Source of the DNA: Rhododendron vialii
Lineage: Eukaryota > Streptophyta > Magnoliopsida > Ericales > Ericaceae
Assembly (NCBI RefSeq): GCF_030253575.1
Contig: NC_080566.1
Location: 10,673,501 to 10,737,500, forward strand
Direction of reading: 5' to 3'
Length of the DNA stretch: 64,000 bases
Below, one piece after another: positions 4,411 to 61,131 of this stretch. Both the position numbers and the translations under genes were made by a program. Under the pieces are notes generated by a model. It did not search any database and was not told the origin of the DNA. It saw only the letters and a list, made by a program, of their open reading frames with translations. The stretch's first letter is position 1. Each line of letters opens with the position of its first letter.

Positions 4411-4504
4411 ACTTGCCTGTGATACGAGCTTTGCTCTACATCACATTAATTTAGATAACTTGCCTGTGATACGAGCTTTGCTCTACATCACATTAATTTA
4501 GATA
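4411..4504. repeat. Perfect 47-bp tandem duplication
   Basis: Two consecutive copies (4411-4457 and 4458-4504) of a unit starting ACTTGCCTGTGATACGAG are identical in the bases read. It lies in non-coding DNA downstream of the methyltransferase gene. Identity implies a recent duplication or an assembly effect. Confidence 0.9.
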
Positions 4505-5459
4505 ACCAAAAGGTACAAAAATGCTTATAAAAGTAAATCCAAAGAGCCAAAAATAAAAGACCAAAAATAAAGGCCAATGGAAAGAAGCAAAACCATATAT
4601 CTAACCACCACTCATGGAAAAATCAAAATATTTTCATGATACAGTAGCTTCAAACCAAAAGTTGCCTAAAAATCCATAAAACCTCACATTGACATCATTG
4701 GTAGCAACTAGCAAGTGATTGTAACATCTTTGCACACATACAACAAAACCCCATAAACAACAGTGTATATGTGCTGCAAATTCTCGTTAAAAAGGTACAT
4801 CCACTACGATACATCTACCTGCAAATTTGCAGATGTGAAAGCTCAAACTGTTTATGGGGAGAATCCCAACAGTGCATAACAGAGCAGATGGCCATTTGTA
4901 TCCGCACTCTAATAATCCCCTTCCTTTTAAAAGGTAGGTATTAATGGACTCGATTATATGTGACACCCATAAGAAACTGCAAATACTAATGGGTACCTAA
5001 ACATATGATCCAGTTTTCCATTGTCATCCTGGTACTATCATCCTAACTGGGCTTCCGTTTTTGCAGCAAGAGAAAATGGAAGATGAGAATTCCTTCTCTT
5101 GGTTTGGTAATTCAATCAATTGGTGTCAAGTTCCACACCTGTGGATATCAACATGAAAATTCGATCAAGCTTCAAAAGTACTGCACAACAATCTAGACAT
5201 CAAATACTGACCTCAAACCTTAAACCATACCTCCCACAGGACAATGTGATATGTCGGCTAGATCTGCAAACATCATGCCAGGAAAACAAACCTCTAATCT
5301 GTTTGGAGCACACAAAAATTGAGATTGTACACTTCTGGAAAATGAATCCTTCCAAATAATTGCTCCCTGGGAAAATGCAACTCTTGATACTAGTGAAACC
5401 TAAAACTCAGATCTTAGATAGACATTTGATCAAGCTATGCCATCTGTCTTCCATCCCAA

Positions 5460-11400: not shown

Positions 11401-12358
11401 TCTTATATGCAGTGTTGCTATGTATAGCAGGTTTCCAAAAACTAATTGGGTACAAGAGAAAGCAAACAGCACAAGAATACCATCAACACCATACTGGTTT
11501 GATAAGGGGGGAAAAACCGCAAATAGTACAAGAAAGATGATGCAATGGAATCGGGAATACCTGCATCTGACTACCTCGCATGGTGGCAGTCTCCTCTCTG
11601 AGCTCCCGTAGAATCTGAAAAAACGTATAAGAGTCACCACCAGGCTTCCTTGGCGTGTTTGGACAAAATTATGTTACCTTTTCCTTGGCGTGTTTGGACA
11701 AAACGTAAAGTGCCAAAATCAATTACATTTTCCTTTTTAACTTTTTCAAACAGGACTAACATTTCGGGACATCTAAAATGGAATAAATGACAAACAAAAT
11801 GGGATGGAGAAGTATCCGTTTTACCCATACTCTTTTTCAACTTTGTCCATGTATGTATACTTTACTCATAATTCTGACAAAAACTACTGAACAAAATGCC
11901 ACTAAATATCAATAACACCAAAAAAAATCAATTTTTCGTCCAAACAAACACCAATTATGACGCAGTATCTCGAATCTAGAATCTATCGACCATAGGGAAA
12001 AGCAATAAGAATAGTTCACCTCCGGCTCTCTGACGTTGGTCAATAAATAATCGTACAGCCGCGGTGTAACGCTAATGACTTGTTTACTTCCGTAGTTGTC
12101 GTCACTGGCCACCGCAACCGACGCTTCAACCCCGCAGCAGAAGCTGCAGCTTCCAGGGAGACGATTCGAATTGCGTGCCCTAACTTGACGACCTCCTCTG
12201 GCGGGGGCAACTGGGGACGAGATATGGAGGAGTCTCCCTGAGGTTCTTCCGAGGAGGGCAGTTGAGTATTTGCCGCTGGGAAGGAGATTACGGCGAGACA
12301 AGTGAGGGCTGAGGATCAGCAGAGGGCTCCAACGGGGAAGAAGAGCCGAAGTAACCAT
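5460..12358 (-). CDS. Class I (CCoAOMT-like) SAM-dependent O-methyltransferase, nine exons
   Basis: Exons: 12358-12020, 11614-11561, 8746-8663, 7150-7025, 6731-6664, 5981-5912, 5811-5746, 5657-5580 and 5501-5460 (stop TGA). Every intron has GT-AG ends and phases agree, giving 308 residues. Residues 1 to about 90 are rich in Ser, Arg and Leu and resemble a plastid or mitochondrial transit peptide. The catalytic part starts near KQVISVTPRLYDYLL. The SAM-binding motif is IEVGVYTGYSS (153-163) followed by the acidic ERD (180-182). The divalent-metal ligands expected in this family are D231 (in YDFAFVDAEK), D257 and N258 (in DNVLWHG). The C-terminus is VPIGDGMTICRKL. The long N-terminus and motif series resemble the Arabidopsis At3g61990/At3g62000 group rather than the cytosolic lignin enzyme. 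These enzymes transfer methyl from SAM to hydroxyls of phenolic substrates; the actual substrate is unknown. Introns 2 and 3 are large and carry transposon relics. Confidence 0.88.
6456..7760 (-). repeat. Segmental duplication, copy 2 (inside the methyltransferase gene)
   Basis: Partner of 268-1622. It contains functional exons 4 and 5 with parts of introns 3, 4 and 5. This copy has the canonical VLPESG spacing in exon 4, suggesting it is nearer the ancestral state. The copies are separated by about 6.2 kb in direct orientation. Confidence 0.85.
7761..8662. other. Remainder of intron 3 of the methyltransferase gene
   Basis: It contains a 149-codon minus-strand frame (8129-8578) of low complexity that matches nothing I recognise and lacks splice context. 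The AT-rich stretch near 7930-8100 could be transposon-derived, but no termini were found. Confidence 0.35.
9712..9860 (+). mobile_element. Degraded Ty3/Gypsy integrase relic
   Basis: The plus-strand reading contains STSHPQIDGQTEVVNQR, matching the highly conserved HPQTDGQTE-VNR signature of plant Gypsy integrases, preceded by a decayed segment reading FWGLRGKSLGLMWKIP. Frames break on both sides. It lies in intron 2 of the methyltransferase gene, antisense to it. Confidence 0.7.
10382..10992 (+). mobile_element. Solo LTR (611 bp) with 5-bp target duplication CCCGG
   Basis: The sequence begins TGTAGTGGACC and ends CACACCACA, the TG...CA form expected of an LTR. It is flanked by CCCGG at 10377-10381 and 10993-10997. 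Inside is a promoter-like block: two TGACGTCA motifs, then TATATAAGG, then a leader-like GGAGGGATAAACCC segment, which sets the strand as plus. No internal region or second LTR adjoins, so it is a recombinant solo LTR. The Gypsy relic 0.5 kb to the left may be unrelated. It sits in intron 2 of the methyltransferase gene, antisense to it. Confidence 0.88.
10612..10760 (+). promoter_or_regulatory. LTR promoter with paired TGACGTCA boxes and TATA box
   Basis: TGACGTCA palindromes lie at 10612-10619 and 10692-10699, 80 bp apart, each followed by GCC(A/G)AAGCAGT. A TATATAAGG box starts at 10751. TGACG motifs are the classical binding sites of plant TGA-type bZIP factors. Function is inferred from motif identity and arrangement only. 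Confidence 0.6.
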
Positions 12359-15300
12359 GTGGAGAAACTGGAAAAACCACTGGGCATCTGGTGTTGCCCA
12401 TGAATTAAAGTAAGGGAGAAATTATTCAATACTGCCTCGGATAGAACTAAAATAAGATTAAATTCCTTCCGCCGCAGAAATTATGAGTTTTTTAGCACTG
12501 TGATCTGAACCACGCCTTCTGTCGCAAATTGAATAACAATTTTGATATTTGTGTCAATTTTAATATTTTATATCTTTTAATGTGAATCTTAAAAAATATA
12601 CAATATGAATTTTATTTGATAGTTTTTGATTAATTCTATCATACAAAATTTTCAAACTTATGAAAAACATTATACTCCAATATTGAAAGATATAAGTAAT
12701 GAAAAATAACATAAATTTCAAAAATTATCATTCAATTTGGTACTGAGGGAGTATTCATCTTATAGGGCCCACAGGTTAGTTTCCTCGTTTAAAAAATAAA
12801 CTTCATTGAACATCAATATGTGTATCAAAATTTAAATTTTGGTTTATAAAACGGATGGTCATATACAGTTTTAACTTGACATGATCAAATCGTCTATTTT
12901 ATAAAATAAAATTCAACTTTTGATTAATATATCAATTTTTAATCAAGTTGATTTTTTGCACGAATACACTACATTATGGGCCCTCAAGATGAATAGTTCG
13001 AATTGTAACAATAAGCGCATGATGGGATCCACAATGACACGGCGGTGAAAAACCGGCAAAAAGAATTAAATCTCATCTCAAATAATCCCAAGTAACTGGA
13101 ACTTGTGGAGGTGGGAAAAGAAGTGAAAACTACTTATTTCTTCTTCTTTTTCCCCTTTCTCTTATTTCTTCTATTTTCTCTCCAACTTTCCCTCTATTTT
13201 CTTTCTTAATTGTTTTTCCTTCCTTTCTCTTTATTTCCACAAGTTCCAAACAGGTAAAATTGAATATGATTCTGAACCACACATTGACGTGGAATTCACT
13301 TCTAAATGTGTAGGACTTATATCAATGTGTGATTCAGATTAGTGCTCAATCTCAGCCCAGAGTTGTTGAATATCTTCTCGGAAGGAAGGGGTGTAATGGG
13401 CTTTTGGGATAAAATTAATGGGCCGTATAATTAATGGTGTTTAGTGGTTAATTATCACTTGAATTATAAACTTTTAATTTACATTATTATAATTAAAATG
13501 TGTAAAAGTGCTTAGATTTTACAAATGGGTGGAGCATAAATTTATATTGAGAATCCAAAAAGATTATTCGTGTGCATGATTGTTGAATTGTGTATCATTC
13601 AACTCTTTTTTTTATATTCCATAACATAATATAGTTTGACAAGATAAATTCTATAATTAACTCTGCACACCCAAAACATGAAGAAATAAAATTGTAATTA
13701 ATTCAATATAGAAGCGACCAAAGATCAATTAAATAACCAAAGTAACCACAAGAGATTGTTCAGAGCTCCCGAAGAACCCCCACGTAATGCTCCATTGAAG
13801 AGACGGTGCTTTAAAAGCAATTAATATGGAGTAATTAGTAACCTCTAGTACAAGATGTAGAAAGAAAGGATGTGATTCCCTCTTCTTTTTCCCCACAGTT
13901 TAATAATATATATTTTTCACGCACCTCCGAGCTTCAGTATATTTGGACAACTATTTTTCTATTATTGTGTTAACCTTATTGAAACTGGATATTAAATTTA
14001 TATAATACGTTCATCAATTCTTTTGCAACATTGAGTTTCAGAAATCATGGTTGGGATCCCTTCGAGAAAGACACCAGGTACTCATACATTTTCATTCTCA
14101 AGTCTTTATTTTCTCGTGTTTTTCGATTCTGATGCGCAACAATTCCTATTATTGTGTGATCTTATGACTTAAAGCATAACATTAAAGCATAACATTTTTT
14201 TATTTGGATAATGTTCGGAATATGTGACCGCGTCGTTCCGTGTCAAAAATAAATTTATAAAAACCAAGAATTAACTTCTACTCCGTAGAATAGTGGTTAA
14301 GACCGAGTATCGTTCCAACGGGGACTGAATGGCTAAGTTACGACAAATTTGATTGATTTTTAGATTAATTCGGAAAAGTAAAGATTGATTGGTTGATTTG
14401 TTTTAAAGAGCTAATTAAACTAAAGAACAATTTAATTAAAAGATTTAGAAACGATGGAGGAAAATATCTAGGGTTTCGAATCCACCCCGACCGCGTAACA
14501 ACAATATGCATAGGTTAAGTTTATTTATTCGAATCAAATGGGATTATCGTTAGGACTTGCAAATCCTAACAATAATCGTCAAGAAAATAATTGGGTTATT
14601 AAAAGGCATAGACTATCCCATAGCACGGACCGTCTCTCAGTAGCACGGTTCGGCTACCTAACGGCACGATCCGTCTTACGAGCATAATCTATCTCAGAAC
14701 TCCAACCACAATCAATGAAAACCATTGCAAAACTAGGTATTTGAAATCTAGAATACAAATACTCAATCGATAGAACGAATTAAAATCAATTCATTCAATT
14801 GAAACGAAAAGGATTCTGAGTTTTACAATCCATCCGAAAAACAAACCAAAACCCATGCATAAAAAGAGGTTACTTGGCGCGAAGTTTCATCTTCTCCCTA
14901 GACAAAGGTTTAGCTGGCCATGGGAACGTGTACAGCTTTTTCTTCTACCATGGAATCCGTCGTACGTGAAATCGTCTCCTGTTCCGTCCTGGTTTGGGGT
15001 CGTACCAAGGAATTAATTCCGCCTGACGTCGTCCTGGAATTCTTCCGCCTGATCAGTAGCATCATATTTTATAGTTTATATTGTAGGGTTTTAACTTTTA
15101 AGTCCTAAATTACATTAAGCTCCTTTGGACTTTGGATAATAATAGATTAATTATGCAACTTTTAGACAATCTGCACTATGACCCCAAGCTTCTTTTAATC
15201 TTCTTATTACTCAATCCAATTTGCACATTTTCGCACCCATCAATCTTTGAGGCCTGCAAACACCATAAAATACTAAAACGAATCAAGTAACAGGGTAAAC

Positions 15301-21317: not shown

Positions 21318-22769
21318 AGGATGGTGTCTTATGTTGTGTAATTTTTCTATATTGCATCTCTGGGAGCGATATTATGTTGTTATGGAGGAAGAGAAAAGCA
21401 GTGAAGAAGGATTGAAATATAATGGTCTCCGAACTGCCGAAACAGTTGTGTCTCAACGATTTCTGATTTATGAATATCCTCTTAATTATATCCGATTAAC
21501 AAGTGCTGATGATGCACCCTGTGTAAATGAAGTTGTTTGGGGTTATTATAGTATACTATAAATCGATCGATGGTGCAAATTTTATTACTATTTTTGTTCA
21601 GTGACTGAACATCCTTTTGTGCATTACTTATGTTCCGGATTTTGAATGAAGCAAGGTAAAGAGCACATAAATTAACTCAGGTCTCTCGGCCTGCTCTCTC
21701 TCTTATGTCTTTCGGCTTTGATTTTGGGAAATGGTTCACCACATATGTTTTTGGAGGTATAGGGAGGCTGCTAATTCGGTGGTAAATTTCTGAGAGCAGT
21801 CATTTTATGCATATACTGTAAGAGGTTAGGTCTATCTTCCGTTCTCCCCATCCCTACTTGCATTGGTATGGAATTATATCGGTAATGTTTCTGTTGTATT
21901 TACGGAACATCCTTCTACTAGAAAAGGTTTTGATTGTTGGATTTAACCTCTTCTCGGCCAACTGAAGGATTAATCAAGAATAACAGCTACTGTGGGTGTT
22001 TTTCGCCTGAACTTTTTATGGCAAGCGCTGATTATTCTTAACCAGAACCTAGAAAGTATCAAATGAAGTGCATAAAAGTGCGTTTTTATGAGAAATTATT
22101 CTTGCAGATTTTGTCCAAAATCATGCTCGAGCTTTTTAGTGTTAGAGTGAAAGGAGGTTTGTCGGAAGAAATATTTCCACTCTCAATCCAAGTCTTAAAG
22201 CAGAGAGGATGAACTATTGAACTTATTTAAGAAGTCATAAATATTCCATTATCAATCCAAGTCTTAAAACAAAGAAGACAAGCCCATAAACAGAAAGAGT
22301 CTTTCTAGGGAAACCGACGGGTTGAAGCCTAATTTTGCACAGACCGTCATGCGGGGCTCACTCTAGGCCTCCATAAAAATGATCCGAGTCGTTCAATAAT
22401 TTTAAAATAAAAAATCGAGAGGGCTCAATCCAATATGTGCATGTGCTCAATCCAATCTTTTCATTTTTTAAAAATTGAAAAAAATGGAAAGATTGAATGA
22501 AATGGGAACTGGAGCATACATCCCACGCTAGATATCTATTCGACCAAACCACATGTTACTGCAATCGGTGACTTGTCCTAATTGAAATCCACACGTGACT
22601 GCAATCCACACGTGACTGCAATCGGTGGAACAACGAAAATTATTCTTAAACGCTGATCATCGAGTTCATAGAGATGGGGATTTCTTTAAAGTGGAAAATA
22701 CTGATCGTGAACATGATTAAAGGATTGCTGATATAATAGAAATAAGTGGGACTCAAACAATTACTGAGA
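21318..22769. other. RimP 3' UTR and spacer
   Basis: The first few hundred bases are probably the RimP 3' untranslated region, which I cannot delimit. Beyond it no gene or clear repeat was recognised, apart from a short duplicated phrase (CCACACGTGACTGCAATC) near 22590. Confidence 0.4.
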
Positions 22770-23032: not shown

Positions 23033-23139
23033 TACTATGAATGTTGTGGCTACTCGATAGATCTAAGGTCAACAATGTTGAGAAGATAGATCTAACAAGG
23101 TCAACAATTGGCTCGCGTAGGAGCACATAGAGGTGTCAA

Positions 23140-23640
23140 ACGTGTCTGTCGTGCTGTGCCGTGCCATTTTCTTCCGTGCCAACCGTGCTTCGTATCGTGC
23201 CGTACTGTGCCCGTTTACTTCATCGTGCCATGGCGTGCCGTGCCATACCGTGCCCGTGCCGTGCCGTGGTGGGCCATTTTGCTTTGTCGGGCCGTGTCGG
23301 GCCGTGCCCTTTTTAAATCGTGTCATGTCGTGCCGTGCCCGATTAATTAATCGTGCTAGATCGTGCCATACCTTTTTTTGTCGGGTCGTGTCGTGCCGTG
23401 CCTTTTTTTGTCGGGTCGTGTTGTGTCGTGCCTTTTTTTTGTCGGGTCGTGTCGTGCCGTGCCTTTTTTTTGTCGTGTCATGCCGTGCCTTTTTTTGTCG
23501 GGTTGTGTGTGTCGTGCCGTGCCTTTTTTTGTCGGGTCGTGTGACTCGTGTCGTGCCTTTTTTGTCGGTTCGTGTCATGTCGTGCAGCCCTTAATCGTGT
23601 GTCGTGTCGTGTCGTGCCGTGTTGTGCCATCGATTTTTGT
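23140..23640 (+). repeat. Left subterminal CGTGCC array of the hAT element
   Basis: This stretch is dense in CGTGCC/CGTGTC words. From about 23361 to 23570 it shows seven units of about 31 bp, each with a T-run after GTGCC followed by GTCGGGTCGTG or a variant. Apparent frames rich in Cys-Arg-Ala-Val or Arg-His-Asp-Thr are by-products of this repeat, not genes. In other hAT elements such as Ac, short subterminal repeats bind the transposase; that role here is inferred. Confidence 0.9.
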
Positions 23641-23715
23641 ATACACATTACCAACCGGCAATTGATTTTCATCTAAAAAAAATCTTCCCATAAAACACAC
23701 ATTCCGGTGCCCAAA

Positions 23716-23944
23716 AAGCACAGATTTTTGACATTCAGTAGAAAAGCTTGGTTCTCATTCTCGACCAGATCAAAAGCTATTTGAAATGCGAGCAAAGCAT
23801 CATCCTTATTTTCAGATCGTAGAAGTTTTTTCAAGATGCTGGAAACACCCTCTGGGTCATCCAGTAACATCAGGCATTGGCAAATGGTTAAATAATCAGG
23901 AGAAGGCAACTTATGGTATAGTTTAACAAGAGAAGACGATACAC
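23716..23944 (-). pseudogene. Captured exon of 26S proteasome subunit RPN2 (PSMD1)
   Basis: Minus-strand reading from an ACACAG acceptor at 23944 gives about 76 open codons, including KLPSPDYLTICQCLMLLDD and LLRSENKDDALLAFQIAFDL, which I recognise as the N-terminal helical region of plant RPN2, a scaffold of the 19S proteasome base. The match stops after about FLLNV and the frame runs into unrelated sequence. The preserved acceptor means genomic rather than processed DNA was captured. Isolated inside the transposon, it cannot make RPN2, though antisense or chimeric transcripts are conceivable. Confidence 0.85.
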
Positions 23945-24799
23945 CTGTGTACAAGATCGGCGGAGAGTTTGGATTAGTTTATGAATAGCTCATCTCCTTC
24001 CTTCAAATTATATTTTGTTCATATCCATCAAGCAATTGGGAATAATTATCAGTTATATAACTTATATGGTGAAAAAAAGAAGGATATCTTCTTTGATATG
24101 TAAAATTGAAGTTCTCCAAATAAAAAAATTGCAGACGTACAAATTATACAATTTCACCAAACAGGAGGCAAACCTTCTATCCTACCACCTCCGTTTCCTC
24201 TCCATGGAAGACCATTCTCACTCAAAAAAACCGCATCCATACAAGTTCTAGTTCTAGATAATCAATCTGGTTCATACATGTTTGGAACACTATGGCAATG
24301 TTTCGTAACGTTGCCACTTTTCTATTTTCTGTTTTGTATTTGTTGAAATCAATTTCAACTTTTTTTTTTTTTAAGTAAAAACAGAAAACATGTTTGTATC
24401 AATTTATTTTTTTAAAAAAAAGAAGCAAACGGTGCCTGTTGTTACCATAGCGTTCTCTGCCTGTTATCCTATACTACTTTTTATAGCTTGCAATGAACGC
24501 CATATTTGCCAATTGTTGGCCTTTTTTTCAAATATTCTATAATACCAATATGCTAGTATTTTCAAATAAGATCATGGTAATTTCATTTAAGAAAAAACGA
24601 AAATGAAATATTCCATTCAACACCAACTATATTTAAACGTCAATGTGCAATATACAATTTAACCATTGAATAAAGATTCATTACATTAGCGGGGAAAACA
24701 ATTCCCCTACAAAAACTACATAAAAGAGTCTTGACTAATTAGATAATACAAATGACAAAACTTCCCCTAGTTCAAACAGTGATAGCAAGACTTCAATTT

Positions 24800-25290
24800 C
24801 AGATGTCTCTTGTAGTAGAATTGATAGCTTGGTTGGTAGACAAGCTGTTGTTACCAAGTCTGTTCTGTCTGAATCTCTGATGAGGAGGAAGTTCCAGTTT
24901 CAGCTATTTCATCTGTTTCAGAACGAGCTTTGGAAAGTGAAGGGGACGGTACTGAGTATGTTAATGTTGGCTTGGTATCTCTTCCAGCAGCAGCTTCCAA
25001 GGATAAACCTGTGGACCTGTGGTAGAACTTAGTAGGTCAAAGAGTAATGTCTCCAAAGGAAAGAAGAAAAGAAAAGAATTTCTTCAAAAAGTAGATGCTT
25101 TAGGAACAACCTCTGATCTGTATATGGCCTACAAGGGTCCAGAGGAAAAAATGAAACTGTTGCCTCTTTAGAAAGCACTACCAGTGCATCTAGTGTTGCT
25201 TTGAAGCAGGAATTTGTTTATATTACGAAGGATAACGTAAAAGAGACTGGTGCCCAAAATTTGGTGGAACGCTATGGTAGTAAGAGTTTT
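24800..25290 (+). pseudogene. Captured fragment of translation factor eIF4G
   Basis: In shifting plus-strand frames the segment encodes pieces typical of plant eIF4G: SRIDSLVGRQAVVTKS, then VSAISSVSERALESEGDG, then SKGKKKRKEFLQKVDA with TTSDLYMAYKGPEEK, then SVALKQEFV. DLYMAYKGPEEK is the most diagnostic. At least three frame changes and a stop codon show it is non-functional. It is on the strand opposite to the RPN2 fragment about 0.9 kb away. eIF4G is the large scaffold of the cap-binding complex. This piece comes from its low-complexity region ahead of the MIF4G domain. Confidence 0.82.
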
Positions 25291-27470
25291 GCTTCTACTT
25301 ATCCCCGTGTCTCTTTACAATTTCAGCACACTTCAGCAACAACTAAGGTATATCAGCAACAAAAAATATCATATTCTAGCACTTTATCTAAGCTAAAAAA
25401 TACTATTTTTTCACTAAACATCCAATCTTTCGAGATTGCAGTATTATCACATCACAACAACAAATATAAGTTGAATAACTATTTGCTTGTGAAAGTATAA
25501 TCAAATAACTAATTTAAATTTGGAGGATACCTAATCTGACCAAGCACTTTCCCCTACTCCAAAAACTGCTCATTTGATGATTCCTTAGTCTCTCAAGATC
25601 AGAGTATCCAACCTTCACATAGACGAGAAAAAAACCAAAGTCTATCCTTTGTATCGTCCAAGTCTCCTTTTCCTCACCCCCATGTCCCCTTTATCCTATT
25701 CTCTTATTTCAATGGAACAATGACAACCAAAAAGTTCAGTCACACATTACAAAATCCCAAGACAAATATCAACTAGTAAGAGTATAATGGAAGTCTGACC
25801 TCCTGGTTACTGTAGAGTTTGAGACTTACACAACCATTATTTCAAGCAAGAGGCACATCAACATTATCGTCTTATGGATCTGCTCGCCGAGAGACAAACC
25901 AAAAAAAACTATAAAGAGAGACAAACCAAAAAAAACTATAGCAGATGAACTCAGCAGAAGCAGAACCAAAGCATATAAGACTTGTGGACAAACTCCTACA
26001 ATATGGTAAGTAAAATCCTATTGCTAAGACGATCAATCTACCAAAACTACGACACAGCCTATTCACCAAAGGCAGCAAATAAGATTGTGGATAGTCATAA
26101 TGTCATTCAAAGAAAAGGTGGGCAGATTATTGTGGAATGCAGCCAGCCCCGCCCCCGTGAAGCTTGAAGTGTCTTTTTAGGCTACAAAGGGAAGTGTCTT
26201 ATGCTACAAATGGTCGTGTTTTAGGCAGCAAATGGTAGTGTTTTTTGTATCCACATGACTCTGGAAAAGCATAACATGTAAAGCGTTAGGCAGTATGAAC
26301 GTTAATCAGTAGATGGAACCATAGAAAACCCACAATAGTCTTCTTGCATTTTCTAGGCAAACAGTTAAGTCCCACTAGATCAAGCATAAGAGTAATGAGG
26401 TTATCAATTGTCATAAAACTCAACAATATGTACACAAAGAAACAAGTTTTTCATGTATTTTGAAATTCATCGTTCATCTTTGGGCACTTTGAGAGGATAG
26501 TCAACTTATTTCCCTAAAATTTTAGCAAACACTAACATCATAAGTCATAACCAAAACAATATAAAGATTAAGCCAAAAAACCAGTTAGCTAGTGAGAAAG
26601 GGCTACAGATATGAAACCAAGAGAGCACAATCAAGAAACCCCAACTAAATAATCGTAATAGAGATAATTGAAATTCTAACGATGGGTACAAGCTTCCCAA
26701 AACTTGAGCTGCAACAAGTTTCTTTCTTTCTTTTTTTCTTTTTTTGGAACTGCGGCAACAAGTTGGCATGAATCTTTTTTCCCCACTACCTTGACTATTT
26801 TCACCACTTAGTGTTCTTAAATCTTTATTCGCTTTGCCCACAACCTTGGAAGAGCTCAGTGTAAGAAATTCACAAACACAGCAGTCATCAAACTTCAATG
26901 GAAATGAAGAAACTACATAATCTAACATGCTATTGTGGCTACCTTTATATTCGTAGCTACTTGTACGTTCATTAGGCTCATCCCTCAGAACATACTCTAG
27001 CTATGCCTGTATATTCGTAGCTACTTGTACGTTTATTTGATTTGATTTTAGCGTACTTTCTAAGTTCCAACTCATGTTACTGATAGTTTCTGAGAACCAT
27101 AACGATAACCGTTTCCTATAGCAATGTCGGTAGCAGAAAACAGAAAGAGGTTTTCAACTTAATAAAAACCACATGATCAAACAGAAAGAGGTTTTCAATT
27201 ATTTGAGACACGCAGGACAGACAACTACCTGATACTTTTGAGAGGAAAAAAGGGTCATTCATGAATTGATAAGTAAAAACCACATGATCCACAGAAATTT
27301 AGTGTGAACTCAACTAGGGCTGAAAGCTGAATGGTAAAAAAAAAAACCTCAAGGTTCAATTCTAGGCAAAGTAGTTGTTGGTTATTGGAATGAATGCAGA
27401 AATATTTTGGGCAATCTCTTGCAATGCTTTTTCTGACCATTCAAAGAGAATAGAATGCAAATGGAATCGT
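25291..27470. other. Interior of the hAT element, no recognised gene
   Basis: AT-rich DNA with short duplications: a unit containing ATTCGTAGCTACTTGTACGT near 26948 and 27012, and GAAAGAGGTTTTCAA near 27144 and 27184. A minus-strand frame at 26545-26928 has an exon-like portion (LSSSKVVGKANKDLRTLSGE) that I cannot assign. It could be a third captured fragment. Confidence 0.4.
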
Positions 27471-27471
27471 C

Positions 27472-27570
27472 ATCTTAATGCTAAATGAATTTAATGAGTG
27501 AACTACATTTCAATAGTAGCATCTTAATGCTAAATGAATTTAATGAGTGAACTACATGGTTTTTATTTAA
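27472..27570. repeat. 49-bp tandem duplication in the hAT element
   Basis: Copies start at 27472 and 27521 with ATCTTAATGCTAAATGAAT. The second copy runs on to ACTACATGG before diverging. Confidence 0.85.
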
Positions 27571-27780
27571 CTCGTTGATTACATTAAGCACATGTGCCAT
27601 TTGAGACTTGAACTAAATAGTTTCTTCACTTATCTAATCTTATTTGTGCGACTCCTTTTCCCACTCCTCTTACACGTCCACACCTCTCGGGGTTTCCTTC
27701 ATTTTCTCTTTCTGAATGCTATAAATTTAGCCCTACAACAACATTCCTAAAAAAGTGTTGTAATCTAATGCTATTAAAAC

Positions 27781-28939
27781 TCACACTTCGCTTTGCCAAA
27801 AACTAGGGTTGTGTCTGTGGCTTATTCATTTCAGACTAAAAGGAGACACACACACACACCCCACACTGCCACACTGTCCAAAACGCATGCAGGCATCATC
27901 CACTTCAGTTAAGTGAAGCTAAACAGACCACAAGACATGCAATCAAATAAATAGCTAACAGACTAACAAACTAACAGGCTGGAGGGGCTAGGCCGCCACC
28001 TCAACTCAGCAAACAGAATATGCGAGGGGTTATGCCACCACCTCAGCTAAGAAATGCAATCAAATAAAAGTAACTATACTAACTAAAAATAACTCAATAT
28101 TTAGCCTGGCTTCGTTACACCTCAGGTTAGCATAAAAACAGGTTAGAGGTATCCACCAAGCTAAATACGAGCTACTAACACATAAACTACTAGAGTCTAG
28201 AGATTGAAAATGCTCCAATCCTTACTATTTCACATATTTACTTTTGGTATTCAAACAGATCAAACTGCATATGTTGTATGCACTATTTCCAATACATAAG
28301 CAGACTAAGCAGTAAGCACCATTTACTTTAATTGAGGGAATCATAAAACAACTATGGATACAAAAATAAGTAAGAAAATCCACCTTCAACATTTTGTTGG
28401 TATTAATTTGCTTCAGCCTTCACGTGGTTTGGTTCTTGGCGTCTATGGTCTACAATGTCCTACAAAATAAGAACCAGCAGCAGCAGCAGCAGAAAACAGG
28501 TATATAAAAGCCAAATGAACAAGGAAATTGAATAAGAAAATTAAATTCTGCTCAGATATTAGTTCCTTTTATCATCATAGCAGAAAAGTGAAATGGATGC
28601 AACGTTAAGTTGCCATTATGGCCTTCATAAGTTGCAACACCACTTCATAGTTCATAACAACACAACTACGGCTCAGACATTAGTGTTTTTTTATCATCAT
28701 AGCCAGAAACTGAAACGGATGCGGCAACGTTAAGTTGCCTTAAAGGCCTTCATAAGTTGCAACACAATCACACTTCGCTTTGCCAAAAACTGGGGTTATG
28801 TCTGTGGCTTATTCATTTCAGACTAAAAGGAGACACACACACACACCCCACACTGCCACACTGTCCACACACACCACAATGAATGCAGGCAACATCCACT
28901 TCAGTTAAGTGAAGCTAAACAGACCACAAGGCATGCAAC
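27781..28939. repeat. Long direct repeats downstream of the transposase
   Basis: A unit of about 165 bp (27781-27942, containing TCACACTTCGCTTTGCC, a CA run and GTTAAGTGAAGC) recurs at 28769-28939. A second unit of about 70 bp, with GCCTTCATAAGTTGC, occurs three times (near 28575, 28690 and 28985). These lie just 3' of the transposase frame and may be structured 3' or subterminal sequence of the element. Confidence 0.8.
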
Positions 28940-29174
28940 ATAACTTAGGGCCTTAGGCTCAGCATGTTAGTTAACAAAATACATCATAGCCAAAAACTGA
29001 AGCGGGGGCAACATCATGTTGCCATTTAAGGCCTTCATAAGTTGCCACAATATCCACTTCAGCCCACTTACTGAAATGAATAAGCCATACACAATGCTGA
29101 AAAGAATAAGCCACAGACACAACCCCAACAGAAAAAATGAATAATAGATTCAAACCAAATGACAGTAAGTCCCC

Positions 29175-31271
29175 CTAATCACTGTCTATATCAGAATCTG
29201 CAAAATAGCCTCTGAATTCATCTTTAGCCGAGCGTTTTTGAATTCCAAGGCGTGCATCCTCCCAATCTTTCAAACATATGAGACAATCCAAAATGTCTGG
29301 AGCAAGTCTGCTCCTCCTCTCATCCAACACTCTTTTACCTGCACTAAAAGCAGATTCGGATGCCATTGTAGACACAGGAGGGGTTAGTAGATCACGTGCC
29401 ATGATTGAAAGAATAGGATATTTATCTTCATTTTTTTTCCACCAAGCTAAGACATCAAAATCACGCCTGTCATTCACGTTAATAGATTCTAGGTCTAAAT
29501 ATTTCTCAAGTTCAATGCGTGAAGTTCCAGTGCTACTTCCTATTCCTAAATTTGAACTAACAAAATCCCAAAATTCATCATTGGTACTTGTAGAAGATGT
29601 TAAAGGAGCAGCAGTACATGAAGCATTAGAACGAAACTTAGATTCATATTTGGCATACATGATAGTCAGTAAATCATTCACATTAGCAGAAGAAGGTAAA
29701 GCGGTAATCCCCAAATTCGTACCAATCTCTCTTAAGAGCAAGCTAACACCTTGTAACTTCATCCTAGGGTCCATTACTGCAGCTAACATAAATATTGGTG
29801 GCATTTTCTCATAATATTTTCTGAATTTTCCTTCCATATCTATACAAGCATGTGCAAAATTTGGATGTTCCCTATGTTTACGAAAATTGACACTGATATT
29901 GAAAAGATGATGAAGCACAATACAAGAAGTAGGATAACGAACACCCGAACAAGCTACGGTAGCAGCATAAAACACTTTCAAAAATTTCATGAACTCAAAA
30001 CCAATTTCCCAATCAGCTATAGTTAAAGGATTACCACGACACGGTCGATACCTCTGATTAACATAAGCAGATATTGCATCACTATATTTTTGACAAGACT
30101 TTAACATAAGGTAGGTCGAATTCCAACGATTTTGAACATCAGAGTTCATATTTTTTGGTTTAAGATTGTAAAGTGATGTGCACAATTTATCAAATTCTTG
30201 TTGCCTAGATGGGGAAGTAGCAATAAAAAGCACAGCATCTCTAATTTTTTTAATCTGTGGTGCTATATGTTTCAAACCGTCTTGCACAACTAAATTAATA
30301 ACATGACATACACATCGCAAATGCAATAATTCACCAAAATAAGGAGTCATCAAATTTCTTATAAACAATGGAAGTGTAGCACTATTAGCACTATGGTTGT
30401 CAAAAGTAATGCTATAAACTCTATCAACAACTTCAAAATCCCTAAAAACACCCATAATACTTTCATAAATCTGTTCAGCATCATGAGGAAACTCCACTAA
30501 ACGGAAAGCAATAATTTTTTTTTGCAAAGTCCAACTAGAGTCTATATAATGAGCAGTCACACAAATATAACCACGATTATTTATACCAGACCACATATCA
30601 GAAGTAAAACCTATAGCACCAACAATTGCAAGTTCACTAATCAAATCTTTTTTAACTTCACTATAAGCTTTCTTCGTATCACTACGGGTTGAATTTCTAG
30701 AAACTTTAGCAAATGAAGGATTCAGACAATTTTTGACAAAATTTTCAAATCTAATATCATCACCAAAAGTAAATGGTTGTTCTGCTGCAGCTACATAAAG
30801 GGCCAGTCCATGTCTCATTTTTTCCTTTGAATAAACAAAATTACTACTATCAGATGCATCACCAATTTTATCAGCATGTTTACTTCTTAGATGTCTACCA
30901 TGTGGCCCTACATCATTATTACTTTTGCATTTATAATTTATGTCACAATAATGGCATACAGCCCTAGCTCCTATGTCTACACCATTTTCATTTTTGAAGT
31001 TTTCATTTATAGAGAAATGATTCCATACCCATGAGTGGCGTCGTGACCTTTTTGAACCACTAAGGCCTGAATTTGCAGCTGCATGAGTAGAATCTGTCGG
31101 AGTAGCAGTGGAACCTAGAGGGCCTGTTCCACTTGGACCACTTCCACCACCAACAATGTTTGAAGCAGCCTTCTCACCTACAGAACCCATACGCTGTGGT
31201 CCAATAGGGTTTCGTGGTAGTTCTTCAGAACCTAAGTGGGAGTCACGATCCTCCCCATTTTCAACATCCAT
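29175..31271 (-). CDS. hAT transposase (BED zinc finger, Ac/RICESLEEPER-like), 698 residues
   Basis: A single uninterrupted intronless frame. Residues 79-133 form a BED zinc finger (SWVWNHF, then C106-x2-C109, then H127-x4-H132), the DNA-binding part. The RNase H-like core carries TSDMW (first Asp) and SITFDNHSAN (second Asp). The LRCVCHVINLVVQDGL motif is typical of Ac-type proteins. The C-terminal hAT dimerisation domain (about 585-665) includes LDLE, then DVLAWWK, then MASESAFSAG, then RSRLAPD. These enzymes cut the element ends and catalyse cut-and-paste transposition with 8-bp target duplications, matching those flanking this element. Length is usual for the family and no stop or frameshift is seen, so it may be active. 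A domesticated host gene is less likely, given the intact terminal repeats. Confidence 0.93.
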   Translation of the reverse strand: MDVENGEDRDSHLGSEELPRNPIGPQRMGSVGEKAASNIVGGGSGPSGTGPLGSTATPTDSTHAAANSGLSGSKRSRRHSWVWNHFSINENFKNENGVDIGARAVCHYCDINYKCKSNNDVGPHGRHLRSKHADKIGDASDSSNFVYSKEKMRHGLALYVAAAEQPFTFGDDIRFENFVKNCLNPSFAKVSRNSTRSDTKKAYSEVKKDLISELAIVGAIGFTSDMWSGINNRGYICVTAHYIDSSWTLQKKIIAFRLVEFPHDAEQIYESIMGVFRDFEVVDRVYSITFDNHSANSATLPLFIRNLMTPYFGELLHLRCVCHVINLVVQDGLKHIAPQIKKIRDAVLFIATSPSRQQEFDKLCTSLYNLKPKNMNSDVQNRWNSTYLMLKSCQKYSDAISAYVNQRYRPCRGNPLTIADWEIGFEFMKFLKVFYAATVACSGVRYPTSCIVLHHLFNISVNFRKHREHPNFAHACIDMEGKFRKYYEKMPPIFMLAAVMDPRMKLQGVSLLLREIGTNLGITALPSSANVNDLLTIMYAKYESKFRSNASCTAAPLTSSTSTNDEFWDFVSSNLGIGSSTGTSRIELEKYLDLESINVNDRRDFDVLAWWKKNEDKYPILSIMARDLLTPPVSTMASESAFSAGKRVLDERRSRLAPDILDCLICLKDWEDARLGIQKRSAKDEFRGYFADSDIDSD

Positions 31272-31579
31272 CTACAAAAAAAACAATATAACAGGGGTTA
31301 TTGGGAAACACGAAAGCCCTAATTTTGTAACCCCAAATGCAATATTCAAGTAATGCAAAAATAAACTAATCCATATCAAGTATGAAGTATCAACAGACAA
31401 CGGTGCATATCTATAACAAAATCATCAGATCTGGTCAATTCTAGAATATACAAAATATCAACAGTGCATCTGTGCATGTGTGTACTAATATACGAAATTA
31501 GTGCAGGTGTGTCCCGTGTCCGTGTGTGTACAAAATCAGTTTCGACAAATTTGTCGAAAATATACTAATATACGAAATT

Positions 31580-32035
31580 ACTTAAGGTAGTAACAAAAGT
31601 GAAAAACCCTAATTTCTTGTTACTAATTTCAGAAATTAGCAACAAAAACCCTAATTACGTAACCCTAATTTCAGAAATTAGTAACAAAAGTGAAAAGCCC
31701 TAATTTGTTGTTACTAATTTCAGAAATTAGAAACAAAAACCCTAATTTCGTAAAAAAAGTGAAAAGTCCTAATTTTTTTTTACTAATTTCAGAAATTAGC
31801 AACAAAAACCCTAATTTCGTAACCCTAATTTCAGAAATTCGTAACAAAAGTGAAAAGCCCTAATTTCTTGTTACTAATTTCAGAAATTAGCAATAAAAGC
31901 CCTAATTTCGTAACCCTAATTTCAAAAATTAGTAACAATTAACAAGAGCCCTAATTTCATAACCCTAATTTCAGAAATTAGTAACAATTAACAAAAACCC
32001 TAATTTCAAAAACCAGGCTAAAACCCTATTTTCAG
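31580..32035 (-). repeat. Tandem CCCTAATTTC array in the transposase leader
   Basis: At least a dozen degenerate copies of CCCTAATTTC occur, alternating with CAGAAATTAG(T/C)AACAA, in units of roughly 40-65 bp. Many sites read AACCCTAATTTC, superficially telomere-like, but the period and spacers differ from TTTAGGG. The array lies upstream of the transposase start, within its probable 5' leader. Confidence 0.85.
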
Positions 32036-32620
32036 AAACTCTATTTACAGACTACAGTAGATAAGTGGGGACTAAAGAGGGAAGTGAGAGAGGTACCTGT
32101 GCAGCTGTGCTCAGAGAGATACGGTGACTGGAGTGAGTCGGTGAGCTCGGTACCTGAGCCTGAGGTGATGAGAGAGTTGGAGTGACAAACGTTGAGAGAC
32201 TGATGGTCACCGTCGCACCGACTCACCCTTTGAGATTTGCGAGTTGTGTCGCCAGAAAGTCGAAAACGGAGAGAAAGAGAGAGCTGTCAGGTGACCGTGG
32301 TCCGTGAGCAGCGAGACAGAGAGAGAGTGTGTGTATGTGAGTCTGAGTCTCTGAGAGAGTGAGAGAGTGAGAGACAGAGAGAGCCAGAAAGGTGAATCAC
32401 TCGGTGAATGGATCCAAAGAAATAAGGAGGCGTGTTTCCAGAATCCGAACGTTGCTCTGCACTGCTCGTGAGAGGACAGAGAGATGTTGAGAGTCTTGAG
32501 ACTTGAGACTTGAGAGAGACAAAGAGACGTTGAGATGAGAACTTGAGAGTTGAGAGGAGTCTGAGAGAGTGAGAGATCGGAGAATGACTGAATGAGATGT
32601 CTGCTAGGGCAGCATCTCAT

Positions 32621-32630
32621 TCCTTTTATA
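32621..32630 (-). promoter_or_regulatory. Candidate TATA box for the hAT transposase
   Basis: The minus strand reads TATAAAAGGA about 1.35 kb before the transposase ATG. The downstream leader is GA/CT-rich and then passes through the tandem array, so a leader intron is likely. No other strong TATA motif is closer in the expected direction. Confidence 0.4.
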
Positions 32631-32695
32631 TGATGTGTGTGATCATGTGCATACAATACACCATAATCCATATGCTCCAACATATCGAAAATTCT

Positions 32696-33505
32696 CGTAG
32701 AGTCCTATAATGCATCACTCAAGGGCCGCTTGAGCTGTTTATTGAAAATCCAAACTGTCTACTTTTTATGTGAGAGTGACTATATCATTCATGCAAAAAA
32801 TGAAGAAAATTGGCTATCGTTATATACTACATCGCACATGACAAAAAATTCCTATTAATGAATCTATGTTCCGATGAAAGGGCTTCCAAAACCCGATAGA
32901 CCCGAATTTCTGGGAGAGTGATTAAAACACCAATAACAATGAAATGAACGGTATGGATCGTCATACTTGTGTCGCAATCGTGTGGCTAGCGTACATTGGA
33001 CTATAGCGGAATACATTGGTTTAGAACTAGATAAGTTAGATGTATAGATTTAAATGGTAGCTGCAGACTTATTATTTCAAATATTCGATCTAAACCGTTA
33101 CGATTTAAGATTTTATCAAATTTTTCATCCTCCCCAAAATAGGTGATAATCGGATATCGGAGGCCATGTGATCATAACACATTCGGTGCTTCCAACGACG
33201 TAAAAGTCCTATAATGCACCACTTTAGGGCCGCCCGAGTTGTTTTTTGAAAATCAGAACTGTTTACCTTTTACGTGGGACTATTTATATCATTTGTGCAA
33301 AAAATAAAGTAAATTGGTTATCGTTATATACTCGATCGCACATAAAAAAAATCCCCTATCAATAAATCTACGTCCCGATAAAAGGGTTTCAAAAACCCGA
33401 TAGACCCGAAAATGTGCGAGAGCGATTAAAACACCAAAAACAACGAAATGAACGGTATGGATCGTCATACTTGTATTGCAATCATGTGGCTAGCGACCTA
33501 GCGTA
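32696..33505. repeat. Duplicated unit of about 300 bp in the hAT right arm
   Basis: The segment at about 32700-32995 recurs at about 33205-33500, sharing AGTCCTATAATGC, then GTTATATACT, AACCCGATAGACCCGAA and GAACGGTATGGATCGTCATA. Similarity is high but clearly diverged. It is non-coding, and its role is unknown. Confidence 0.85.
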
Positions 33506-33967
33506 CAAGAGGCCGTTTTTTAAAAATAGAATTATATAATATTAATATAATTGTTTGGATAAGTTTTCTTTTTAATTTAATTTTTAACTTTTAATATGTA
33601 GTTCACAGGAAAAAAAAATACTTTTGACTATATAAAAGCATAATATTTACTTCGAACTCAACAAAATTTGATAAAAGTTGTTTAAAACAATTAATTCTCT
33701 TATTATTAAAAATAACATTCTTACAATTAAAGTTCATTAGTACAAAAAAAACACAATGTATGAGCGATACCGATACGTTTGATTCATTTTTTTTTCTAAT
33801 GGTATAAATCGTTTTAATAATTTATTTTAGTTAAATTATGAAACTAAAAGTTTAATCTCTTAACCTCATATTAGACACATATTGACATACATTGATTTTT
33901 ATTGTTAAAAATATAGAGCCTCATTTTTAAAATTCGCTTTATGCCTCGAAAATCTCAAGATCGGCCC

Positions 33968-34700
33968 TGCGTGCCCGTGCCCGTGTCGTGCTGTGCCGTG
34001 ATTCGTGCTCCATCCCACTTCCGTGCCGTGCCCGTCTAAGACCGTGTCGTGCCGTCCCGTGCCAAGCCAACTTCCGTATCATGCCCGTGTCATTTCCCCT
34101 CACTTCCGTGCCCGAACCGTGCCACGTGCCCGTGCCGTGCCCTGTGTCTGGCTAGAACCGTGTCGTGCCGTGTCGTGACTCGTGCCCTATCCCACTTCCG
34201 TGCCGTGCCTGTCTAAGACCGTGCCGTGCCGTGCCAAGTCAACTTTCCGTGCCCGTGCCGTGTCGCGTGCCCGTGCCGTGCCGTGCCGTGCCGTGCCAAG
34301 TCAACTTTTCGTGCCCGTGCCGTGTCGCGTGCTCGTGCCGTGCCGTGCCGTGCCAAGTCAACTTTCCGTGTCCGTGCCGTGTCGCGTGCCCGTGCCGTGC
34401 CGTGCCGTGCCGTGCTGTGCTAGAACCGTGTCGTGCCATGTCGTGACTCGTGCCCCATCCCACTTCTGTGCCGTGCCAGTGCCGTGCTCGTCTAAGACCG
34501 TGTCGTGCCGTGCCGTGCCAAGTCAACTTCCGTGCCGTGCCCGTGTCGTTCCTGCTCACTTCCGTGCCCGTGCCGTGCCGCGTGCCGACTAAGACCGTGC
34601 CGTTCCCGTGTCGTGCCAGGATTATTCCATGCCCGTGCCCGTGCCGTGCCGCCTTCAAACGTGCCGTGCCGTGCCGTGCCCGTGCCGACCCGGCCCATAT
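33968..34700 (+). repeat. Right subterminal CGTGCC array of the hAT element
   Basis: Dense CGTGCC words, mostly as CGTGCCGTGCC and CGTGCCCGTGCC. A larger phrase (CCAAGTCAACTTTCCGTG with neighbours) repeats at about 34233, 34296 and 34354, and an AGAACCGTGTCGTGCC phrase recurs. The word orientation matches the left array on the same strand, so the arrays are direct, not inverted, relative to each other. Arg/Ala/Val/Pro/Cys-rich frames here are repeat artefacts. Confidence 0.9.
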
Positions 34701-34901
34701 TACACCTCTAGGAGCACACCATTTATTACTCTATTAAGCTATTATTAACCATATGAACAATAAACACAATACAGAGCTGAGATTAAAACCACTCCACCCC
34801 TAAAAACGTCTGCTCCCCCTTCTCCTCCCCTCTCACGTTCTGCTTCTGCCTGCCCCCCACCCCGTCCACTCCGACCGACGGGCCCCAACCACCGACGATC
34901 C

Positions 34902-37029: not shown

Positions 37030-39276
37030 GTTACCTTTGCTAGTTTACTCATTGGATTTGAAGGACAATTTCTCTTATCATGTCTAAATTGAAAGCACAT
37101 GTGACACTTTCTTTTCTTCTTATTTAATGACATCTCAATACCGCTTTTCAATCTTTCGGACTATGTAGTAGCGGCTTTTCCCTTGACATCCTTCAATTGG
37201 AGACACCATAGAAACTTTTTGGATCTTCTCAAATAAAACATTAATACCTTCAATAAAAATTGTATATGCCTCATTTGATGGGGCGGCCAAACAAGCCAAT
37301 TTTGTAGCTTTATGACACATATGGCCAAGTCTTAATGCCTTGGATTCTTCTTTGCCGTCGTCATGCACCAATCCTAGGGAATCAATTATCCTAAATTTGT
37401 TGGCCTTTTGCCTCCATCGTGGAAGAATAAAATGTTTCGGTATTTCATCAATGTCTAGTCGGACAAATACTTTCAAAATGTGCGCACATAATATCCCAAC
37501 AAACTCAAATTGTTGGCATTCGCACTTACCCTCATAGGTTTGCGAATCCAATGTCACCTCGAACTTTTCAAGTTCATCATCTTTTGACTTCACTACGAAA
37601 GATTGAAAACCATTGGCACTTCTCACATTTTCAACTTTGTAGTAAAAGACTTTACTCCATTCATCCTTGAACTTGTTGAAGACATTTCTAGTATATACTT
37701 TTGCCGCATGCTTCAATAAAAATTCATGGTCATTAACAATCCGAAACTTATGTTCGGACTCAAAATCTTCATTATTTTCCCTTTTCACAATCATCTTCAA
37801 GGCTTTCTCATACTTCACCACAACTTCTTTGAGATTTGACGTGTGAGCTACAAAACCATCAAAAAATGAGTTGATGCCCTCATTATGTTCAGTAGTATTC
37901 ATACCAGCGAAAAATGTACCACAATTATAAACGGGTACCCATGATTCACGAATATCAAACAACCCTTGAAGCCATTTGTTGCTTTCTAACCCAGTTTCCT
38001 TCATCAATAACATCCATCTCTCTTCAAAATCATCTTTCTTGAATGTCCCCTTAATACATTTTTTCATATCCTTCTTGAATTTCGATCTCTTGTAGTACAC
38101 TTGTGGCAACTCTTCAATAAATTTCTTCTTAATATGCCAAAGACATAGATGATGACGAGTGTTGGGAAAAACTTTGGCAATAGCTTCTTTCATTCCCAAG
38201 TCTTGATTAGTGATGATAGAAGTTGGAGGACGTCCTCCCATAGCGTCAAGCCATGTTTGAAACAACCATACAAACGTCACCTCTGTCTCGTCTTGTAAAA
38301 GTGCACATCCATATTGTATCGACTGCATGTGATGGTTTACTCCCGTAAATGGTGCGAAAGGCATATCATACTTATTTATTCGATATGTTGTGTCAAATGT
38401 GACCACATCTCCAAAATACTGGTACGCCATGCAAGATAGAGAATCCACCCAAAAAAAATTAATTGCCCTTCCACTCTCATCACATTGAATCGCATAAAAA
38501 AATTGTGGATTATGTGCTTGTTTGGTCTTAAAGTAGTTAAGAACTGATTGTGCATCCCCGCAATCTAGGTCTCTATGCCTCACATTCCTCAAGTGATTGA
38601 AGCAGTCCCTATTATCAAAGCCAATGTACTCACCACCAAAAATTGAAGGAACTTTCGAAATTTCTATATTTTCTTTATGAAGTGCTTCAGTCAAATCCTT
38701 AACTGCTTTGGGCATGTTTCGATTTGACATCATTTTGATCCTCTTACATGGAGTCACTAGTTGGTGGTTGTGATTTTCACCGAAACCTGTTACTTTCCAT
38801 TTGCAATTCCATTTGTCATGCATAATCCGCAAATGAGCCTTGCATTCACATTTAACGGTTGAACGCCTAACTCTTTTCTTTGGTATCACTTTCTCCTCTT
38901 CACCTGTCTCATCATTCCCCTCCACGACACCCTCCTTCTGATTTTTTGCAACATACTTTCTTTCTTTTGCGCAAACAAATAGCACCTTAGTGACTTCATT
39001 TGACTAGTTTCGTCCTTTGCTTGAAGCCTGAGTACGAATCCAAAACCCATTTTCTCGACCATAACGTTCATAGTAATTCTGTGCTTCTTCAATTGTCTCA
39101 AAATACATCCCAATTGTCTGTGTTTTTAACCCTTCCACAATGTTATCTGGAGTCTCGATATCATCTACTTCGACATCATCTAAATTCACTATCTCCATTG
39201 TTGACCCTTCGGTTGCCTGCAAGAAAAAGAAAAGAAAAGAAATCCATATGCTACAAGCAGGCTGGGTAACGAGCAA
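37030..39276 (-). pseudogene. Broken MURA transposase of the MULE (FAR1/FHY3 family)
   Basis: Translation in one frame from 39276 gives a FAR1-type DNA-binding domain (YYERYGRENGFWIRTQASSKG), an in-frame TAG at 39006-39004, then an open frame to 37135. That frame continues the FAR1 domain (VLFVCAKERKY, then CECKAHLRI), then the MULE transposase core (VVTFDTTYR, SIITNQD and HHLCLWHIKKKF) and a SWIM zinc finger (CECQQFEFVGILCAH). After the 37135 stop a CCHC knuckle (CHMCFQFRHDKRNC, about 37060-37106) lies in another frame, so a C-terminal frameshift removed it. Such proteins are Mutator transposases, from which plant FAR1-related regulators descend. The flanking inverted repeats show this one belongs to a transposon. 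Stop plus frameshift make it probably inactive. Confidence 0.85.
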
Positions 39277-60060: not shown

Positions 60061-61131
60061 ACCAAACGTTCCATATTCTCTCTTTGTGTGTGTGCTATTT
60101 TGAAATTTTGAACGACCTCTCGGTGTTACATGAACAGGTTGATACTTTGTTCACGGTTACAGTGTTGATTTGCATGTATGCTGATTATTCGATCCGCTTC
60201 TTTGGGCACGAGCATGCACTAAAAGAACTCTGTTTGAACCTAATTTAAAAATATATATTCCAGTATAAATCAGTTTCGTTGGCGGAGGTGGTCAATAATT
60301 TCGTAATTCATTTCAAAATGCATTACGTCGTGTCTTCAGACGCTTAATTAAGTCATTTTTCTAAGGGTCAATTAAAAAAATTATTTTAAAGCTAATGGCT
60401 CGTTTGGAAGCAGTCTTGTTGTGAAGGAGGATAACCCCCTGAAGACCGTGGGCCCCTCCTTATTCGCTGGTTTGGGAACCCGTTCTTCGTTTATCTCCCT
60501 CTTGTGTAAGACCCGCCAATACCCCTGCGGGGGTATTATTTATGCGCAGGTTTTGGGGTGTTATTAGTTAATACCTCCGATAAGGCCGAAATAATATTAT
60601 CTCATTCTTCATTTCAACTACAAAATAATATTATCCCCCATTTTTAATACATCATCCAAACAACTACTATTTAATCTATCATCAATAAATATCACCTCAA
60701 TGTGGGTCATCCCTTATTAACCAATATACTTACTATTTTATCCCTCATTCATAAATAATTATCCCAATCTTTATTCTGCATCCAAAATAAATAATTACCT
60801 CAATTCTTATCCCGCATCCAAACGAGCCCTAATGGACGATTTGGATTTTTCGGTCGGACCCAATGTGGGTCATACGTGCACCCACAGTCGGATAGTAGGA
60901 TTGATTGACGTATTGTACTCGGTTTTTTTTTTGATCCTCTGTTGGAGGGTTAAAACACAGAAATTAACCGTTCCAACGGTCACAACGACAAGTTCCAGGA
61001 AACCTCAAATCAATAGCCAAAGATTTTGAGGGGGTGATTTGATTTTGTTCATTGAGTGATTCATCCCCAAAAGGCTTGTTCTTAGATTTTAATCTTTTTA
61101 ATTTGAGAAAAAATATAAGTCTTTGTTGGAG
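60061..61131. other. Spacer upstream of the PPR pseudogene
   Basis: No gene was recognised. AT-rich with an inverted-repeat flavour: AACGAGCC at about 60823 and its inverse GGCTCGTTTGGA at about 60396 may mark a decayed MITE. Confidence 0.35.

Follow-up and report, generated by a model that had tools for sequence, protein, structure and literature searches.

The stretch analysed here (the window) comprises 64,000 bp of the Rhododendron vialii genome (contig NC_080566.1, positions 10,673,501 to 10,737,500) and contains an 11,583-bp transposable element of the hAT superfamily at window positions 23128-34710. Judging from its sequence and from that of its relatives, this element is very likely a complete and probably self-mobilising member of a recently active, large-bodied family, with a variable cargo zone into which pieces of the gene for the 26S proteasome subunit RPN2 were apparently taken repeatedly. 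Its main interest appears to lie in this combination of a live-looking hAT with captured cargo and a family that apparently took one host gene more than once.

The element and its relatives in the genome

The element begins with TAGAGGTGT at position 23128 and finishes at 34710 with the reverse complement, ACACCTCTA; the perfect 8-bp duplication GGAGCACA brackets it at 23120-23127 and 34711-34718. The protein encoded between these ends matches the Pfam families Dimer_Tnp_hAT (3.3e-29) and hAT-like_RNase-H (2.2e-11), both above cutoff, and the solved Hermes transposase (PDB 6dww, 1.5e-18) in two stretches of the hAT core; at the level of regions, the Hermes alignment spans those of the DDE triad. 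A zf-BED match on residues 82-132 was sub-threshold (14.8 bits, cutoff 20.6). Three characters of the hAT superfamily are present: a transposase core with a C-terminal dimerisation region, an 8-bp duplication and short terminal inverted repeats. An earlier sequence-only reading had proposed base-exact hAT borders, with inverted ends and the GGAGCACA duplication, around an uninterrupted hAT frame of 698 residues; each of the borders, ends and duplication is confirmed in the letters of the window, and the frame is open and carries the Pfam hAT domains and the Hermes match. The features of the element, with coordinates in the window, are:

23120-23127, no strand: left target-site duplication GGAGCACA, 8 bp (sequence match)
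23128-23136, plus: left terminal inverted repeat TAGAGGTGT (in the fetched elements, left end the same or one base off)
23128-23627, plus: left subterminal array (23 CGTGCC and 0 GGCACG in the first 500 bp; tandem repeats)
23711-24093, minus: captured type A piece of RPN2 with intron and exon DNA (90.6% to RPN2 on contig C2)
24336-24441, no strand: filler that separates the RPN2 side from the CACTA-like block
24442-27004, plus: internal piece of a CACTA-like repeat, with internal deletions (96-98% to a copy on C1)
24741-25236, plus: eIF4G exon piece carried in the CACTA-like DNA (91.5% to eIF4G on C7)
27297-29174, no strand: element DNA from the cargo to the transposase stop (partly common to subfamilies; local duplications)
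29175-31271, minus: hAT transposase, 698 amino acids, open frame (open reading frame, Pfam and Hermes match)
32701-33495, no strand: upstream of the transposase, a 291-bp sequence in two direct copies (32701-32991 and 33205-33495)
33970-34697, plus: right subterminal array (58 CGTGCC and 0 GGCACG in the last 720 bp)
34702-34710, minus: right terminal inverted repeat, ACACCTCTA on the plus strand
34711-34718, no strand: right target-site duplication GGAGCACA, 8 bp (sequence match)

The window was scanned for every exact 8-bp duplication adjoining an exact 9-bp inverted match. Ten pairs were obtained (the element's own, seven registers of one TATATA repeat, 48473/53164 and 51717/52117), and 20 single-base shuffles (500-bp blocks, spacing 300-20,000 bp) gave 0 or 1 pair each. 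Since the shuffles also produce 0 or 1 pair, the end pair alone is only moderately surprising; the pattern of ends and duplication being insufficiently rare by itself, it is the copies elsewhere in the genome that settle the reality of the element.

The genome searched amounts to 532.6 Mb in 13 contigs, the window lying on contig C10. Searches with 273 bp of the left end (best 40 of 332 candidates) and 300 bp of the right end (best 40 of 370) gave at least 40 strong family-end matches on each side, both lower bounds. From matches paired by position, 17 further elements were fetched (16, then one more), which is the outcome of the search for like-ended copies with 8-bp duplications that had been suggested for this genome. 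With the window copy, 18 elements were inspected; in every one of them both ends are present and flanked by a perfect 8-bp duplication, different in each (L026 by eye), in a sample that is not random because elements were picked for paired end matches. All 9 bp of the inverted ends agree in the window copy and in 7 of the 17 fetched elements; the ends are one base apart in eight (L013-L017, L024, L025, L027_28) and two bases apart in L026, and those of L040 were matched by pattern only. Among the matches listed there are also unpartnered left ends (C3:24389881, C1:21413514 and C10:19638786, among others) and right ends (C8:32517162 and others); C12:22888609 and C12:22919037 are separated by 30 kb.

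The large size that had been called unusual is common to the 14 transposase-bearing elements, all of 9.1-18.8 kb: besides the window copy, L009-L012 (9.2 kb), L013-L017 (9.1-9.6 kb), L018_19 (11.0 kb), L020_21 (11.3 kb), L027_28 (12.1 kb) and L022_23 (18.8 kb), the longest of which includes an 8.4-kb long terminal repeat (LTR) retrotransposon. The elements without a transposase match measure 8.6 kb (L040), 5.7 kb (L026), 4.7 kb (L024) and 4.3 kb (L025).

CGTGCC occurs on one strand only, so that the arrays share one direction at both ends, and its reverse complement GGCACG was absent from both subterminal regions in 18 of 18 inspected elements; by analogy with other hAT elements (Ac, AAACGG), the arrays are putative transposase binding sites. 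The direct duplication of 291 bp is present in all 17 fetched elements, including L024-L026, which are without a transposase match, and is perhaps required in cis. Inside the element, neither the Rfam scan nor the tRNA scan of the window gave a match, and the open reading frames at 26545-26928 and 32207-32683 gave no Pfam match at 1e-3.

Host-gene cargo and the copying of RPN2

Much of the element's extra length is a variable cargo zone, extending from the left array to the transposase; the captured host-gene and transposon DNA inside it had gone unmentioned in the sequence-only reading. The RPN2 piece was identified by Pfam RPN2_N (4.3e-15), PDB 8amz (1.3e-28) and alignment to the host gene, which appears by eye as a run of RPN2-like open exons across about 6 kb of C2. 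It includes intron DNA, indicating that the template was the gene itself rather than mRNA. When the genome was searched with a 1,551-bp stretch of RPN2 and all 39 candidates were scored, one whole-query match and 29 fragment sites were obtained (9 weak rows at query 1470-1548, in an intron, removed before counting), at a DNA level that could overlook a diverged second RPN2 gene. Sixteen of the 29 sites lie within complete family elements; the seven further sites fetched all lie no more than about 1 kb from a left array of the family (L046 without the exact end motif); and the last six, not read as whole elements, lie near family end matches, the furthest about 9.5 kb away. All 29 are thus in the hAT family or at most about 10 kb from one of its ends. 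Three types were distinguished: type A at 12 sites, one of them partial; type B at 15, of which 11 have additional tandem repeats; and type C at 2. Type A cargo, which is that of the window, is found in eight complete elements whose target duplications are all different, indicating that it spread through transposition.

Type C is represented by L027_28, which holds RPN2 gene positions 5222-6448 in three pieces. Substitutions compared to the RPN2 gene, counted with exon limits set by hand, amount in introns to 11/149 in the window's type A and 11/690 in L027_28 (Fisher p = 4.6e-4), and in exons to 11/213 and 6/476, respectively; in both, the divergence from the gene is 4-5 times lower in type C. 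The best reading of these counts is that RPN2 was copied again later into the family, as a new capture or by conversion. That the family took RPN2 pieces at least twice, at different times, is supported by the sequences, not proven.

Several observations weigh against this reading: type C could reflect gene conversion by the RPN2 gene; its divergence is uneven (5/96 at one edge versus 12/1,070 elsewhere); and in the shared exon stretch the differences from the gene are 4-8/116 for type A and 3-8 of 105-116 for type B, so that A and B may go back to one old capture that was trimmed in different ways. The short overlap of A and B contains no derived change in common (by eye), and the two types do not clearly represent separate capture events. 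The family ancestor might also have captured a long stretch of RPN2 only once, early on, with different trimming in each subfamily and no second capture. This would suit the common orientation and zone of the three types, their order, which is compatible with one long RPN2 stretch, and the likeness of A and B in exon divergence. A single capture is nevertheless unlikely, given that type C is so much less diverged than the window's type A although the L027_28 transposase has the longest branch in the unrooted tree, and that the later conversion by the RPN2 gene which it needs would itself be a second copying.

L040 (8,574 bp, no transposase match) is 99.984% identical to L027_28 across 6,071 bp; its right 2.5 kb are only 98.7% alike, so L040 is not simply L027_28 with a deletion. 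The pair fits a carrier, L027_28, and a transposase-less sister of the Pack-hAT kind, L040, with the direction of change presumed. L027_28 additionally contains, at element positions about 5078-5326, a piece of the gene for the 65-kDa scaffold subunit of PP2A (PDB 9j5i, 3.1e-21).

The window element also has cargo from another transposon, in which an exon piece of eIF4G is contained; the eIF4G open reading frame on C7 matches MIF4G (1.2e-54). Window positions 24442-27004 are collinear, with gaps, with a repeat found also on C1, C12 and C5. Both fetched copies reaching the left boundary begin with CACTACAACAAA, and the C12 copy only has the inverted motif TTTGTTGTAGTG 5.8 kb on, past the part aligned to other copies; because of these motifs the repeat is probably CACTA-type, with the 3 bp flanking the C12 copy showing no match (AAA/TTA). 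Neither end motif occurs in the window element, indicating that the piece was captured or that its ends were deleted; a complete nested CACTA insertion is unsupported for the same reason. The block is partly common to L020_21 and L022_23, and in the L010/L018 lineage the interval 24336-27296 is occupied by other DNA, which BLAST does not match to the window at a threshold of 1e-5. The copies L030/L035, L031/L036 and L037 belong to a CACTA-like repeat family that carries an exon piece of eIF4G and may itself be a Pack-CACTA.

As in other members of the superfamily, the CGTGCC arrays and the TAGAGGTGT ends would be bound by the transposase, which would excise the element and reinsert it with an 8-bp duplication, the anatomy and the duplications being those observed here. 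The cargo zone received DNA from host genes and another transposon, most likely via repair of the excision break from ectopic templates; captured cargo was then multiplied through transposition, and an element that carries cargo and loses its transposase would become a non-autonomous Pack-hAT, as L027_28 and L040 may illustrate. An RPN2 piece already on board might also act as a homology arm, by which the ends left after excision invade the RPN2 gene and copy more of it. This capture ratchet is doubtful; if true, it would explain why one gene was retaken with neither orientation nor zone changing, and Pack-hATs would originate in autonomous hATs that carry cargo.

Instead of break repair, two family members flanking host DNA could move jointly as a composite. 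Such tandem insertion was proposed by Gisby and Catoni for the Pack-TYPE elements of every DNA superfamily, CACTA and hAT being among the examples named (PMC8903248), and the middle of L016, with 27 CGTGCC, does contain an extra array. In the window copy, however, the left array is on one side of the cargo and the transposase on the other, with only 3 CGTGCC in the middle, and the donor loci are without paired family ends (RPN2, 13 kb, one 9-bp end-motif match; eIF4G, 3.5 kb, none), which makes tandem insertion quite improbable as the source of this cargo.

Recent activity of the family

L010 and L011, at different sites, are 99.935% identical over 9,237 bp, and L013 and L014 are 99.4% identical over 9,187 bp; near-identical copies of 9.2 kb indicate recent activity, in agreement with the live or recently active family suspected in the sequence-only reading. 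An open frame of 690-707 amino acids is present in 11 of the 14 transposase-bearing elements. When the window copy is compared with the 10 other open frames, the ratio of nonsynonymous to synonymous divergence (dN/dS) is 0.32-0.46 (synonymous divergence, dS, 0.03-0.12), indicating that the transposase frames are under constraint. Two points temper this picture: dN/dS inside subfamilies ranges from 0 to 0.82, on few changes, and the elements were selected for both ends, from end matches that are lower bounds. A decayed, immobile relic family would agree with the three broken frames (L009, L020_21, L022_23), but it is very unlikely in view of the 99.9% identical copies at separate sites and of the constraint on the open frames.

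There is next to no probability that the two ends come from different elements and that the 11.6 kb are a chance bracket of nested insertions, a reading which the CACTA-like DNA inside the interval might suggest and which is rejected on the copies elsewhere in the genome: the same kinds of end are paired across perfect duplications in the 17 other elements, the nearest relative, L020_21, aligns to the window copy in blocks of 5,030, 3,520 and 2,430 bp at 95-99%, ends included, and in 18 of 18 elements inspected, which were picked for having both ends, the two ends belong together without nearer partner ends, as the single element first proposed would have it.

The retrotransposon in L022_23 (C2:16491515-16510266) occupies about 8.4 kb at element positions about 4429-12828. 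Its LTRs (2,604 bp) are 99.96% identical, with TTATG on both flanks (by eye), and it is very young; the additional 8.4 kb of this element were accordingly rejected as cargo.

Setting, significance and comparison with known systems

Near the element, Rfam places a snoR100 H/ACA small nucleolar RNA at 21640-21746 (plus strand), about 1.4 kb from the left end. An open frame of 622 amino acids at 37135-39003 (minus strand) seems to resemble a MULE or FAR1-type transposase, and the open frames at 61119-62041 (plus strand) seem to resemble pentatricopeptide-repeat protein sequence.

How cut-and-paste transposons pick up genes is unsettled between break repair and tandem insertions. Here the donor gene shares one genome with captures that seem to differ in age, with a transposase-bearing carrier and with its sister that lacks the transposase, so that the steps can be put in order and tested. 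The 29 sites also tie pieces of a proteasome gene to one transposon family, and are a possible source of small RNAs against RPN2.

Hermes is an animal element, from the house fly; its transposase matches that of the window in the two hAT-core stretches and is otherwise distant in sequence. The literature searched contained no report joining a transposon, RPN2 and gene capture, and the whole word 'hAT' is absent from the available part of one review (PMC13317346). Maize Ac/Ds likewise belongs to the hAT superfamily and has subterminal hexamer repeats, and Ds2 and Ds-l4 carry gene fragments, for whose capture by Ds break repair has been suggested; Ac, however, is 4.6 kb long with AAACGG repeats, whereas the elements described here are about 9-12 kb, with CGTGCC arrays that read on one strand only (Ac/Ds, PMC3260210). 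Pack-hAT and other Pack-TYPE elements have in common with the window element hAT ends around captured gene DNA and 8-bp duplications (PMC8903248), and captured coding DNA between the ends, by which Pack-TYPE elements are recognised, is present in it (RPN2 and eIF4G pieces). Pack-TYPE elements are defined as non-autonomous (PMC8903248); the window element keeps an open transposase frame, and it is L040 that fits the definition.

The nearest precedent found is Hatvine-6 of grapevine, also a hAT with a transposase plus gene-derived cargo, in which transposase and ends are shared and the rest is variable, often matching genic intron or exon DNA; its length is given as 'variable', with 35 copies having more than 90% of the transposase and 17 potentially functional frames (PMC2528002). 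The likeness is by description, not by sequence, the family criterion of that report being the 80% rule. Hatvine-6 has a 13-bp terminal inverted repeat and a 9-bp duplication, compared with 9 and 8 bp in the window element, and the available description does not include repeated capture of one gene, a piece of a gene-bearing transposon or a transposase-less sister (PMC2528002). hATs carrying both a transposase and gene cargo are thus already known, and the window element is a variant of them.

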